Shown piece after piece: positions 203 through 62,149 of a stretch of 64,000 nucleotides of DNA. The stretch is from the NCBI GenBank assembly GCA_016124855.1, contig WGMX01000021.1, positions 62,001-126,000 on the forward strand. Direction: 5' to 3'. Under the pieces are notes generated by a model. It had not been told where the DNA came from and ran no database searches. It worked only from the letters and a program-made list of their open reading frames with translations. A program made the position numbers and the translations under genes. The stretch comes from Anaerolineaceae bacterium (lineage in GTDB: Bacteria; Chloroflexota; Anaerolineae; Aggregatilineales; Phototrophicaceae). Position 1 is the first letter of the stretch; the number at the start of each line of letters is the position of its first letter.

Positions 203-1417
203 CTACTTCTTATAATACTTTCGCCCCTTGAGCGCTTCAGGCAGCAAGTCATCTGTCGAATACATCTCATAGCCTTTGCCATAGCCGAGGTCTTTCATCA
301 ACTTGGTCGGCGCATTACGCAGATTCAGCGGAATCGGCAAATTTCCCTGCGCTTTGACATCTTCCAGTGCAGCAAAATAAGCATCCCCCGATGTGCGGTC
401 TTTGGGAGCGAGTGCCAGATAAGCCACGCCCTGCGCCAGATTAAATTGACATTCGGGCAGGCCAATCGTTTCCACCGCGCGGAAAACTTCATTCGCCACC
501 ACTAACGCGGTTGGTTGGGCATTACCAACATCCTCGCTGGCAAAAATCACCATCCGTCGGGCGATAAACTTCGGGTCTTCGCCACCGTTAATCATCCGCG
601 CCATGTAATACAAGGCCGCATCCACATTACTCGCCCGCATACTCTTGATAAAAGCGCTGATCGTATCGTAATGTTCTTCAGCCGCTTTGTCGTATCGCAA
701 AAACTTGGATTGCAGCGCGTTTTTGAGATTATCCAGCGTCACGGTCTTGCTTTCTTGGGCGTACAGTTCGACCGTCACCTCTAAGAGATTGAGCGACTGC
801 CGCGCATCACCATTAGCAAACTCGGCAAGGAACGACTCAGCATCCGGCTCAATCGTGACTCCAAGTTCAGTCGCGCCCTGCTGGATGATCTCTTTGGTTT
901 CCTCAACTGTCAGCGCCTCAAGGACAAATACACGGCTTCGCGAAAGCACTGCCGAATTCACCTCAAAGCTCGGATTTTCAGTCGTTGCGCCGATCAAGAT
1001 CAGCGTGCCATCTTCCATGTAGGGCAGCAGGAAGTCTTGCTGTGCCTTATTGAAGCGGTGGATTTCATCGAGGAACAGCACCGCACTCCCCCGCGTCTTG
1101 GCCTCCACTTGCGAAAACAGATCGCGCTTATCCGCCGTCTGGATTTGCTCGACAATCGACCGAATTTCAGCTTTCCCTGCCGAAACAGCCGACAGTTCGA
1201 AGTAGGGTCGGTTCGTTGCCGAAGCGATAATCCGTGCCAGCGTGGTTTTACCCACACCCGGCGGCCCCCAGAAAATCATCGAGTAGATTCGGTTCTGGGT
1301 AATCGCCAGATACAGCAGTTTACCTTTCCCGACAAGGTGTTTTTGTCCAATGAATTGGTCAAGTGTTTTAGGGCGAACACGGTCAGCCAGCGGTTGGGCT
1401 TGAGTGGTTGTTGACAT
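203..1417 (-). CDS. rarA: RarA/MgsA replication-associated recombination ATPase
   Basis: AAA+ ATPase of the clamp-loader clade that acts at stalled replication forks. From the chosen start (404 aa) it shows Walker A GPPGVGKT (51-58), Walker B LFLDEIHR (about 114-121), sensor 1 GATTENPS (143-150) and a C-terminal region typical of RarA, including ASEDVGNAQP and the LRNAPTKLMKDLGYGKGY tail. Length is normal. An in-frame ATG two codons upstream (1423) sits directly against the GAGGAG ribosome site, while the ATG at 1417 has a 7-nt spacing, so 1417 is preferred. The first codons overlap a strong promoter that reads the other way (1411-1439). A membrane-protein gene follows after 3 nt. Confidence 0.95.
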   Translation of the reverse strand: MSTTTQAQPLADRVRPKTLDQFIGQKHLVGKGKLLYLAITQNRIYSMIFWGPPGVGKTTLARIIASATNRPYFELSAVSAGKAEIRSIVEQIQTADKRDLFSQVEAKTRGSAVLFLDEIHRFNKAQQDFLLPYMEDGTLILIGATTENPSFEVNSAVLSRSRVFVLEALTVEETKEIIQQGATELGVTIEPDAESFLAEFANGDARQSLNLLEVTVELYAQESKTVTLDNLKNALQSKFLRYDKAAEEHYDTISAFIKSMRASNVDAALYYMARMINGGEDPKFIARRMVIFASEDVGNAQPTALVVANEVFRAVETIGLPECQFNLAQGVAYLALAPKDRTSGDAYFAALEDVKAQGNLPIPLNLRNAPTKLMKDLGYGKGYEMYSTDDLLPEALKGRKYYKK

Positions 1418-1439
1418 TATCATGCTCCTCGGCTATATT
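1411..1439 (+). promoter_or_regulatory. Sigma70-type promoter for the sulfur leader/sseA-sufE transcript
   Basis: TTGACA at 1411-1416 and TATATT at 1434-1439 are separated by exactly 17 nt, close to a consensus vegetative promoter. The expected transcription start, about 7 nt past the -10 box, is 1446-1447, which is the A of the leader-peptide ATG. The transcript would therefore be leaderless. The promoter overlaps the first codons of rarA on the opposite strand. The start site is inferred, not measured. Confidence 0.75.
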
Positions 1440-1446
1440 CTAACCC

Positions 1447-1539
1447 ATGAACAAGTCCAATCTCTACCCGGTAATGATGTGTTGTCCCATGTGTATGTGT
1501 TGTACACAGGAATACCCACGTCTGCGTTCGGGTGAGTAA
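1447..1539 (+). CDS. Met/Cys-rich leader peptide (30 aa), candidate sulfur-amino-acid attenuator
   Basis: A 30-codon frame ATG (1447) to TAA (1537-1539). Residues 10-19 read MMCCPMCMCC: nine of ten are Met or Cys, and all five Cys codons are TGT. There is no Shine-Dalgarno, but the predicted transcription start coincides with the ATG, so translation is probably leaderless. A hairpin and an intrinsic terminator follow, then a sulfurtransferase and sufE. Cysteine-rich leaderless reading frames that attenuate sulfur operons are known in mycobacteria, so the architecture has precedent. Bases 1522-1527 (codons 26-27) can pair with 1589-1594 in the terminator, which would give a classical ribosome-stalling switch. 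The peptide itself probably has no function after synthesis. Confidence 0.75.
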   Translation: MNKSNLYPVMMCCPMCMCCTQEYPRLRSGE

Positions 1540-1605
1540 GGTTGTTTTGCGAGAAATCATCAGGATCATGAACAACCAGAGCCGACCTACGCAGGTCGGC
1601 TTTTT
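1540..1605 (+). terminator. Attenuator: pause hairpin plus intrinsic terminator ahead of sseA
   Basis: GGTTGTT at 1540-1546 pairs perfectly with AACAACC at 1571-1577 just after the leader stop codon. It is followed by GCCGACCT (1581-1588), loop ACGC, AGGTCGGC (1593-1600) and five T residues. This strong terminator ends no gene except the leader peptide and stands about 105 nt before the sulfurtransferase start. CTGCGT at 1522-1527 is complementary to ACGCAG at 1589-1594, a possible antiterminator pairing. Confidence 0.8.
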
Positions 1606-1709
1606 GTTTGGGCAGTGCAAGCCCAAACCGGACTGAGATTATCCCGCATCACACGAAAAGTGAAGTTATTTTGGTCAATTAAGCAGGCAACAGAAGGAGC
1701 GAGGAAAAA

Positions 1710-2579
1710 ATGAGTGACATTGCAAGCCGTGGTTACGCAAACCCTGATGTACTGGTTTCCACCGATTGGTTGGCACAACACCTAAACGATGCCAACATCC
1801 GCATCATTGAGTCCAATGAAGACCCGCTGCTCTATCCGTCGGGACACATCCCCGGCGCGGTACAGGTCGATTGGACCAACGACCTCAACGACCAAGTGCG
1901 CCGCGATTATCTCAACCGCGATGGTTTTGAGAAACTGGCCTCAAAGATCGGCATCACCCCCGACACCACCTTGATTTTCTACGGCGACAAGAATAATTGG
2001 TGGGCAGCTTACGCCTATTGGGTATTCCGTCTGTTTGGTCATACCAACGCCAAATTGGTCGACGGTGGTCGCCTAAAGTGGGAAAAAGAAGGTCGTGAGC
2101 TGACCAAAGAAGTTCCCAGCTATGCCCCGACCACTTATAAAGCACCCGAACGCAACGACAGTGAAATCCGTGCCTTCCGCGATCAAGTGCTGAAGCATGT
2201 CGAAGCCGGTCTGCCCTTGGTCGATGTCCGCAGCCCGGATGAATACAGCGGCAAGCTGACCCACATGCCCAACTACCCGCAAGAAGGTGCGCTGCGCGGC
2301 GGTCATATCCCCGGCGCTAAGAGCGTTCCTTGGGCCAAGGCTGTCAACGCCGAAGACGGAACATTCAAGTCTGCCGCAGACCTCAAGGCCATCTATGAAG
2401 GCGAACAGGGACTCAAGCCCGGCGATGACATCATCGCTTACTGCCGCATTGGTGAACGCAGCAGCCATTCATGGTTCGTCCTGACCAATCTGCTCGGTTA
2501 CAAAAACGTCCGCAACTACGATGGCAGTTGGACGGAATGGGGTAACTCGGTCAACGTGCCGATTGAAAAATCAGTGTAA
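1710..2579 (+). CDS. sseA: Thiosulfate/3-mercaptopyruvate sulfurtransferase (tandem rhodanese)
   Basis: 289-residue two-domain rhodanese that moves sulfane sulfur from thiosulfate or mercaptopyruvate to an acceptor thiol. The N-terminal domain (about 13-125) is the inactive rhodanese fold ([12 protein letters not shown]). The C-terminal domain (about 155-285) carries [21 protein letters not shown] and the active loop CRIGERSS with catalytic Cys245. The loop matches the actinobacterial SseA/CysA2 type. A clear AGGAGCGAGGA ribosome site precedes the ATG. It lies between a Met/Cys leader with terminator and sufE, so expression is probably coupled to sulfur amino acid supply. The sseA-sufE pairing resembles the arrangement seen in mycobacteria and suggests sulfur supply to iron-sulfur assembly. 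Confidence 0.93.
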
Positions 2580-2720: not shown

Positions 2721-3164
2721 ATGACCAATTACCCCGAAAAACTGAACGATATCCTTGACGATTTTTCGATGATCACCGACCGTAACGAACGTGCGGAATA
2801 TCTCATCGAAATTGCCGACCGCTTCCCCGAAGCCAAAGTCCCACCGACCATCGCCACCCAACCCTATGACGAATCGCACCGCGTTCCGGCCTGCGAGTCC
2901 GAAGCCTTCGTTTGGGCGGTGGATAATCCCGATGGCACGATCAAGTATTATTTCGATGTCCTCAATCCGCAGGGGCTTTCTGCCAAAGCCATGTGCGCCG
3001 TGCTAGATGAAACCTGCTCCGGTCAACCATTGGATAAAGTCGCGTCCTTACAAACCGACATCGTCTATGACCTATTCGGCAAAGAAGTTTCAATGGGCAA
3101 AGGTCAGGGCTTGATGGGCATCGTCAATATGGTGCAGTACGAAGCCAAGAAACGCCTCTCATAA
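2721..3164 (+). CDS. sufE: SufE-family cysteine desulfurase sulfur acceptor
   Basis: 147-residue SufE protein, which accepts persulfide sulfur from a SufS-type desulfurase for iron-sulfur cluster assembly. The family signature is present around Cys58 (RVPACESEAFVW, the counterpart of the GCQS motif), as is the C-terminal helix with GLMGIVNMV. ATG 2721 is preferred over the frame-open codon at 2676 because it gives the normal SufE length and starts MTNYPEKLNDIL; an AAGG lies about 9 nt upstream. No SufBCDS genes are in the window. It follows sseA and is probably read from the same promoter once attenuation is relieved. Confidence 0.9.
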   Translation: MTNYPEKLNDILDDFSMITDRNERAEYLIEIADRFPEAKVPPTIATQPYDESHRVPACESEAFVWAVDNPDGTIKYYFDVLNPQGLSAKAMCAVLDETCSGQPLDKVASLQTDIVYDLFGKEVSMGKGQGLMGIVNMVQYEAKKRLS

Positions 3165-37977: not shown

Positions 37978-38112
37978 GGTTGTTGACGGTGCGATCAGGC
38001 CGGGTTACCTGCAACACCCAGAAGAGACTCCTTAGTGCTGCTATCTTCCGATCCTGACACGGTTCGAAGGTTCTGCCGTGCAGGACCCAGTCTGACCGTA
38101 CTGTCAACAACC
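37978..38112 (-). ncRNA. ffs: Bacterial SRP RNA (4.5S-like)
   Basis: On the minus strand the sequence has the helix 8 signature GTGTCAGG, ATC-GGAA-GAT tetraloop (GGAA opposite 38046-38049), then AGCAGCACTAAGG, and the preceding CCTTCGAACCG typical of SRP RNAs. The ends close by GGTTGTTGAC (5', 38112-38103) pairing with GTCAACAACC (3', 37987-37978), a perfect 10-bp helix. About 135 nt, fitting the eubacterial class without an Alu domain. A T-rich stretch (TCTTCCTTTTC) follows as terminator. It binds Ffh and targets membrane proteins. Confidence 0.9.
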
Positions 38113-60938: not shown

Positions 60939-62149
60939 TGCGTATCCTGCTCATCTCGCGCTGTCCGCCGTGGCCTTTGTATTTAGGTGACCGGCTGATT
61001 GTTTATCACCTAGCCGAAGAACTAGAAGCCCGCAACCATGAGATTGATTTGCTGGCTTTTAGTGACAGTCCCGAAGATGAGCAGGGAAAAAACCATTACG
61101 ATTTTCGGTTTAATGACGTACAGCTTTACCCTGAACCACCGCGCAGCCAATTCAGTTATCTCAAACGACTGCTTTTCCCTCAAACCCGTTTCCCTCGAAC
61201 TGCTGAACAATCATGGTCGCCTGAGATGTGGCAGGCCATTGAAAAAAAGCTGGCGACTAATCACTACGATGCAATTCATCTATTTGGCGGTATTCAAGTT
61301 TATGAGTTCTTTCATGCGCTCGGCGGACGAAAAGCGATAATCACCCCGTATGAAAGTTTTAGCCTATATATAAGGCGGTTGATTGAGAATGCAGTTAGGC
61401 GGGAGGGTCAAAGACCTTTCACTACGAGTATCATGAATCACATTCAACATCAGATTGCACAACGTTTTGAGTCGTTCATGTTCACACCCTATGAAAATAC
61501 GGTGGTCGTTTCGGAGCGTGACCGTGACGAACTGGTGGCGATTAACCCCAAGCTCAACGTAATGGTCATTCCAAATGGTGTGGATATTTACGAATTCCGT
61601 CCGCGTCCCGTAAAGCGCATTCCGGCTCTGCTTTTCGTCGGCAATTATGAGTATGCGCCGAATGTTGATGCGGCGCTGCGCTTGGCAACCGAGATATTTC
61701 CAGCAGTTAAAGTCCATGTGCCGGCGACTCGTTTGTGGTTGGTCGGTAATGCTCCGCCACCTGAGCTGTTAGGCTGTGCCAACGATTCTATCCGCGTCAC
61801 AGGTCGCGTGCCGGATGTGCGTCCCTATTTAGCACGGGCTGGTGCGTTTGTCAGTCCGCTGCGATTGGGTGCGGGTATCAAAAACAAAGTGCTGGAAGCG
61901 TTAGCGATGGGTTGTCCTGTGGTGGCCACACCCATCAGCTTAGATGGAATCGCGGTACTCGACGGTCAAGACGCTTTATCGGCTGATAGTACAGCAATGA
62001 TTGAGGCGATTGTACATCTGCTGCAAGATGAAGCGTTACGATCTACACTTTCTGTCAATGGGCGCAAGTTGATTGAATCCCGCTATAGTTGGGATCATGT
62101 TGCCCAACAATATGAGGATTTGTACAAAAATCTCTCCACTTCTGCGTAA
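60938..62149 (+). CDS. Glycosyltransferase, GT4 family
   Basis: 403-residue GT-B enzyme: MRILLISRCPPWPLYLGDRLIVYHLAEELE at the N-terminus and a donor domain with LLFVGNYEYAPNVDAALRLA, LWLVGNAPP, VTGRVPDVRPYLARAGAFVSPLRLGAGIKNKVLEALAMGCPVVATP. Starts on the last base of the upstream stop (TAATG), so both are one translational unit. It resembles the EPS GT4 enzymes but lies 43 kb from that operon; a separate glycan or glycosylated small molecule is likely. Confidence 0.88.
   Translation: MRILLISRCPPWPLYLGDRLIVYHLAEELEARNHEIDLLAFSDSPEDEQGKNHYDFRFNDVQLYPEPPRSQFSYLKRLLFPQTRFPRTAEQSWSPEMWQAIEKKLATNHYDAIHLFGGIQVYEFFHALGGRKAIITPYESFSLYIRRLIENAVRREGQRPFTTSIMNHIQHQIAQRFESFMFTPYENTVVVSERDRDELVAINPKLNVMVIPNGVDIYEFRPRPVKRIPALLFVGNYEYAPNVDAALRLATEIFPAVKVHVPATRLWLVGNAPPPELLGCANDSIRVTGRVPDVRPYLARAGAFVSPLRLGAGIKNKVLEALAMGCPVVATPISLDGIAVLDGQDALSADSTAMIEAIVHLLQDEALRSTLSVNGRKLIESRYSWDHVAQQYEDLYKNLSTSA

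Follow-up and report, generated by a model that had tools for sequence, protein, structure and literature searches.

How is the sulfurtransferase gene sseA controlled in Anaerolineaceae bacterium (Chloroflexota; assembly GCA_016124855.1, contig WGMX01000021.1), where a promoter, a short frame rich in Cys and Met and a terminator precede it? The stretch analysed here, referred to as the window, covers 64,000 nucleotides (nt; contig positions 62,001 to 126,000, forward strand), and the original prediction made from it was of a leaderless Met/Cys leader peptide and attenuator governing an sseA-sufE operon. Every coordinate given there for the promoter, the frame, the Met/Cys run and the terminator was confirmed in the sequence, and comparison with relatives supports the proposed core, in which a leaderless leader peptide, stalling at Cys codons, an antiterminator near the end of the frame and a terminator would act together. 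Our reading, to which we assign a probability of about 0.86 on sequence grounds, is that sseA is preceded by a ribosome-mediated transcription attenuator that responds to cysteine and has a leaderless leader peptide. Its predicted parts are the following.

1411..1439, forward strand: sigma-70-type promoter TTGACA-17-TATATT, matching 11 of 12 consensus positions (by inspection of the window, -35 box TTGACA at 1411-1416, 17-nt spacer, -10 box TATATT at 1434-1439); relatives have a like promoter at an equal distance from the ATG.
1447..1539, forward strand: putative leaderless leader open reading frame of 30 codons, its ATG 7 nt past the -10 box, with Cys at residues 12, 13, 16, 18 and 19.
1474..1503, forward strand: candidate regulatory codon run MMCCPMCMCC (residues 10-19; four Met, five Cys and one Pro), of which the Cys codons are the conserved part in a comparison of 55 leaders.
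1522..1533, forward strand: region 2, CUGCGU..GGGU, the predicted 5' half of the antiterminator (from the RNA fold of 1517-1594 and tests over the whole leader set; not significant for the window alone).
1540..1577, forward strand: spacer hairpin separating region 2 from region 3, GGUUGUU...AACAACC (from the RNA folds of 1517-1594 and 1517-1603).
1578..1610, forward strand: intrinsic terminator, whose segment 1585-1594 would double as region 3 of the antiterminator.

The frame encodes the peptide MNKSNLYPVMMCCPMCMCCTQEYPRLRSGE (stop codon at 1537) and is followed, 38 nt past the stop, by the terminator stem (1578-1603, 11 pairs) and the run TTGTTTG. The RNA fold of this terminator reaches -17.4 kcal/mol, with a z of -6.75 against shuffles. 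When both strands of the window were scanned for a leaderless frame together with a terminator, the sseA leader was the single match. Genome-wide, the strict promoter-ATG pattern occurs at four sites, one of which is the window leader; the other three are a long frame resembling a regulator and two frames (3 and 10 codons) that lack a Cys run. A genome-wide search for clusters of Cys codons, used alone, proved useless and was discarded (2005 matches versus 887 for the reversed pattern).

To place this leader among its relatives, we assembled the sequences that precede sseA in 107 genomes, each contributing one locus: 92 of the 93 genomes of the family with a match (G062 was left out) and 15 genomes from the order's remaining families. 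Four of the 107 regions were shorter than 600 nt. The scan was blind to amino acids and required a promoter, an ATG 5-8 nt after the -10 box, a frame of 12-50 codons and a terminator between -12 and 90 nt past the stop. A leader with a terminator was retrieved upstream of sseA in 49 of the 107 genomes, versus none of the 107 reverse strands and none of 535 shuffles (five rounds). All 49 leaders contain at least two Cys, all except L017 and L019 have a Cys-Cys pair, and Cys accounts for 16.3% of their residues. The layout that the original prediction had proposed to seek in relatives is present, and the leader is conserved: matches were found in 13 of 17 genomes of the home genus, 29 of 32 of the sister genus, 7 of 43 from the family's remaining genera and 0 of 15 from the order's other families, and they span at least seven genera of the family. 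The layout is thus more than a chance arrangement, given the single match in the window and its recurrence in relatives.

Six leaders that came from a relaxed scan or from visual inspection (L027, L123, L129, L194, L202 and L205) complete the table of 55 used below (13 from the home genus, 32 from the sister genus, nine from the family's other genera and one from the order's other families); only the 49 scan matches are free of hand selection. In the remaining 52 loci, no leader was detected by the strict scan, the relaxed scan or eye. A slightly looser scan of the genus's other loci (751,562 bases, both strands summed and overlapping loci included) returned Cys leaders and one unrelated 12-residue frame only. 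Loci from other orders of the class yielded no match (0/40), and among 80 named loci from several phyla the layout was found in three (L032, L037 and L041), all titled Anaerolineae or Chloroflexi, which are probably the genomes G007, G116 and G104 and are not independent of the 107. Another locus titled Anaerolineae (L033) has a Cys leader according to a Cys-based scan and failed the strict one. Short Cys-containing frames were also seen in loci from the other orders, L303, L311, L316 and L330 among them; those of L311 (at -232 from sseA, MNACICTCRPRGR) and L303 (at -275, ...MMQCPCACSPRGIGPG) are accompanied by a terminator-like hairpin and stand outside the leaderless promoter layout.

The leader frame seems to begin at the very 5' end of its mRNA. 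In the 49 matches the -10 box is separated from the ATG by 6 nt (32 cases), 7 nt (16) or 8 nt (1), a spacing that is partly a product of selection since 5-8 nt was a requirement of the scan. Independent of this choice of spacing, a Shine-Dalgarno-like 4-mer precedes none of the 55 leaders, whereas each of the 55 sseA genes at these loci has one. Leaderless genes have been predicted in 4 of 12 Chloroflexi genomes, according to passages of PMC3160421.

Under the proposed mechanism, RNA polymerase would start at or beside the A of the ATG at 1447 and a 70S ribosome would initiate on the 5' AUG. With ample Cys-tRNA, the ribosome would pass the Cys codons, reach the stop at 1537 and mask CUGCGU; the hairpin at 1578-1603 would then form and transcription would stop ahead of sseA. 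With scarce Cys-tRNA, the ribosome would stall at codons 12-19 and leave CUGCGU..GGGU (1522-1533) exposed, free to pair with the nascent ACCUACGCAG (1585-1594) while the 3' arm of the terminator is still being made, and the resulting antiterminator would permit read-through into sseA and perhaps sufE. As for the benefit, the chemistry of the family suggests that the sseA product could provide sulfane sulfur from, for example, thiosulfate, sparing cysteine.

The geometry and folds of the 55 leaders are consistent with this scheme. Counted from the stop, the last clustered Cys is a median of 6 codons back and the terminator begins 21-46 nt further on. With a ribosome placed at the stop, the predicted fold is the terminator in all 55 cases. 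Nascent RNAs in the stalled state fold more stably than those with shuffled leader ends (mean z of -1.64; p<0.05 in 25/55), and a helix test with the terminator loop at its centre gave a mean z of 1.34 (p<0.05 in 11/55); complementarity between leader end and terminator therefore exceeds that of shuffles over the set. Plain leader-terminator duplex energies (p<0.05 in 18/55) are the weaker test, discriminating poorly because both terminator arms are GC-rich. In the window, the fold of 1517-1594 pairs region 2 with region 3 around the hairpin at 1540-1577; the original prediction had called this a pause hairpin, and, while the hairpin is indeed present, it is better read as a spacer inside the predicted antiterminator fold. 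The complementary pairs vary by lineage: ACGCAGGT with GTCTGCGT in the window, CACAGG/TCTGTG in L005, TTCCGGT/ACCGGGA in L017, CATCCC/GGGATG in L129, CCCGC/GCGGG in much of the sister genus and GCCCGTC/GACGGGT in its member L212. The two genus alignments proved unsuited to formal covariation counts, region 2 being nearly invariant in the sister genus and poorly aligned in several members of the home genus. An antiterminator is supported over the leader set, and that of the window is predicted from the set.

Several observations weigh against this reading. Of the 49 matches, 42 come from two genera, with few from the rest of the family and none from the order's other families, and therefore the matches are far from independent and related sequences weigh heavily. 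Within the home genus itself no leader was found in four of the 17 loci (L006, L007, L009 and L022), and the Cys runs are eroded in L016, L018 and L019. The predicted pairing of CTGCGT (1522-1527) with the terminator's ACGCAG (1589-1594) stands as a complementarity and has support over the leader set, but the window taken alone does not reach significance in the loop-centred test (p=0.082), the nascent fold (p=0.129) or the plain duplex (p=0.353). Loop-centred values are above p=0.4 in eight of the 55 leaders (L013, L016, L019, L027, L113, L123, L170 and L210), and swapping terminators between groups discriminates only moderately. A count of cross-pairing (at least four pairs) in nascent folds was dropped as evidence, as 74% of shuffles show such pairing. 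When a stalled ribosome is combined with the full-length RNA, the minimum-energy fold is still the terminator in 34 of 55 leaders, the window included, and kinetic capture during transcription must therefore be assumed. Finally, nascent folds showed no leader-terminator pairing in five sister-genus loci (L112, L184, L185, L189 and L203), which may use another pairing. By eye, the leader end GGCTGCT of this subclade could pair with AGCAGC just ahead of the terminator.

Cysteine leaders also occur elsewhere in the genus, from which 30 loci of the cysteine-synthase family were taken. Among the eight loci of the cysK-cysE type (seven genomes), the scan found a leaderless Cys leader with a terminator in five (L222-L225 and L239), inspection by eye added Cys leaders in L227 and L228, and L226 yielded none by either route. 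The cysK/M-like gene of the present genome (L237, G000 contig 7, 318 amino acids) is preceded by the leader MFVCACCCLKRGR, and a TGTTGTTGTCTGA(A/G)G leader was found in all 11 loci of this type that were examined (L234-L238 and L243-L248), four further cysK/M-like loci having been left out of the 11. Their consensus fold combines a hairpin in the leader with a terminator that is long and nested, with six pairs altered at both positions in one or more sequences. In L237, positions 1206-1380 hold one hairpin nested in another, with a T run after each, resembling a terminator inside a terminator. The cysK/M-like leaders appear to have a 5' untranslated region, and therefore leaderless and ordinary designs would coexist. 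No leader was found by the scan in the remaining loci of the 30. We consider it likely that one family of Anaerolineae possesses, in at least seven genera and possibly from its ancestor, a cysteine 'ribulon', in which transcription attenuation at independent Cys leaders (leaderless or with a 5' untranslated region) would control sseA and the cysK/M-like gene, along with cysK-cysE in some species; selection would act mainly on the Cys codons, the start mode and the geometry, and the sequences of peptide and antiterminator would be freely rewired. The name is used by analogy with mycobacterial work; a search of open-licence full texts for the term returned no relevant paper.

The signal that is sensed is most likely cysteine, with Met outside the conserved signal, because Cys is conserved and the Met pattern is confined to near relatives. 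Apart from their start Met, the 55 leaders hold 1279 residues, 207 of them Cys versus 78 Met. Their Cys codons are 167 TGT and 40 TGC, versus 52 and 41 in 37 long open reading frames of the window (Fisher p of 1.9e-5, the background being the window only). Of the joint Met/Cys sensing originally claimed, the cysteine part is upheld and the methionine part falls away. A combined Met and Cys sensor would account for the three or four Met inside the run of the window and its near relatives L002, L003 and L111, the only loci with a run so dense in Met; yet at least two Met lie within five residues of a Cys in just 11 of the 55 leaders, and the runs of the sister genus are mostly plain CC or CCC, without such a pattern, which makes this alternative very improbable. 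We think it least probable of all that the Cys-rich peptide is itself active, as a metal- or redox-sensing arrest peptide or a small metal binder, rather than serving as a gauge of Cys-tRNA. Patterns of the kind CC..C..CC could bind metals, and some leaders carry up to 7 Cys per 12 residues, but conservation outside the Cys codons is poor, Cys spacing is variable (CCC, CC.CC, C.C.C), the shortest leaders have 19 residues, and a cysteine signal is in keeping with the sister loci, which are cysteine-synthase genes.

A leaderless poly-Cys frame could instead work by translational attenuation, as in mycobacteria, with the hairpin incidental and the Shine-Dalgarno site ahead of sseA released by a stalled ribosome. 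The leaderless poly-Cys logic would be the same, and passages of PMC4633059 and PMC9031893 place a mycobacterial Cys-rich upstream open reading frame before the rhodanese-family gene cysA2. This explanation is nevertheless unlikely in view of the strong terminator that lies between leader and sseA, the absence of leaderless frame and terminator together from shuffles and reverse strands, and the terminator fold predicted in every leader once the ribosome sits at the stop. The parts downstream of the terminator are the following.

1710..2579, forward strand: sseA-type two-domain sulfurtransferase (rhodanese, Pfam PF00581) with a CRIGERS loop, led by a Shine-Dalgarno site; the gene proposed to be controlled.
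2721..3164, forward strand: sufE-like gene (Pfam PF02657), possibly partly co-controlled.

Sequence matches of the sseA product in the PDB include the thiosulfate sulfurtransferases 3hzu (SseA) and 3hwi, the closest being the sulfurtransferases 8k55, 1uar, 3p3a and 3hzu. The proposed sseA-sufE operon holds in so far as sseA is followed by a SufE homologue in 27 of 30 loci (L001-L030), with the sufE ATG only 2 nt past the sseA stop in L010. In the window, however, the two genes are separated by a 141-nt gap containing a hairpin (2625-2646, GGGAGGGTGTAAAAACCCTCC), and similar hairpins occur in L002 and L003. Control of sufE by the leader is doubtful in this species because of this intergenic hairpin, and the gene may be under partial leader control only.

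On the other side of the leader lies a divergent rarA/mgsA gene starting at 1423 or 1417, whose start region, within 1411-1423, overlaps or abuts the leader -35 box. A -10-like hexamer, TAGAAT, on the minus strand (1437-1442) overlaps the leader -10 box, and the leader promoter and that of rarA/mgsA are possibly one bidirectional promoter. Rfam covariance models gave no match to the leader in the window, where only the signal recognition particle RNA reached its gathering score (bacterial small type, RF00169, 68.7 bits, 37995-38092, minus strand); a search of eight related loci at up to E=1 gave three matches, all below the gathering score and outside the leaders.

As far as our searches of the open-licence full-text literature show, subscription papers not being covered, each element of this attenuator is known and the combination and the phylum are new. 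Passages of PMC4833913, drawn from the literature on Chloroflexi and leader peptides or attenuation, report no such system. If the reading is true, amino-acid-sensing leader peptides extend to Chloroflexota, and the 55 natural variants, with their differing antiterminators, offer a direct test of what attenuation minimally requires in codon run, spacing and ribosome mask.

The nearest parallels are mycobacterial. Leaderless Cys-rich frames precede cysA2 and other genes in mycobacteria (Shell et al. 2015, passages of PMC4633059), and the polycysteine leaders of Canestrari et al. (2020) are cited as translational attenuation in parts of PMC9031893 and PMC13236596; Seliverstov et al. (2005) predicted Cys leaders in Mycobacterium and, in the part of PMC1262725 concerned, did not find conserved terminator hairpins. 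The present leaders resemble these small frames in their leaderless start, their Cys runs, their place ahead of sulfur and cysteine genes, one of them from the rhodanese family, and their presence at several loci per genome. Unlike the mycobacterial frames, which these passages describe as translational and without conserved terminators, they are joined to a terminator and a complementary leader segment, and they belong to a different phylum. If true, a mycobacterial-type leaderless poly-Cys sensor has here been coupled to a transcription terminator, and Cys-sensing ribosome leaders before the same class of sulfurtransferase gene may either have arisen repeatedly or be older than thought.

For transcription attenuation with a leaderless leader peptide, the precedent is trpL of Sinorhizobium meliloti (passages of PMC7298713), with which the window leader would share a 5' end at the leader ATG (predicted here), stalling at regulatory codons and competition between terminator and antiterminator; trpL, by contrast, is alphaproteobacterial and senses Trp where the signal here would be Cys, and homology is not implied. 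With classical attenuators such as that of Corynebacterium ilvBNC, for which leaderless initiation is discussed in parts of PMC11857589, the proposed system has in common a leader peptide, regulatory codons and alternative hairpins, and it differs from them in the amino acid that is sensed.

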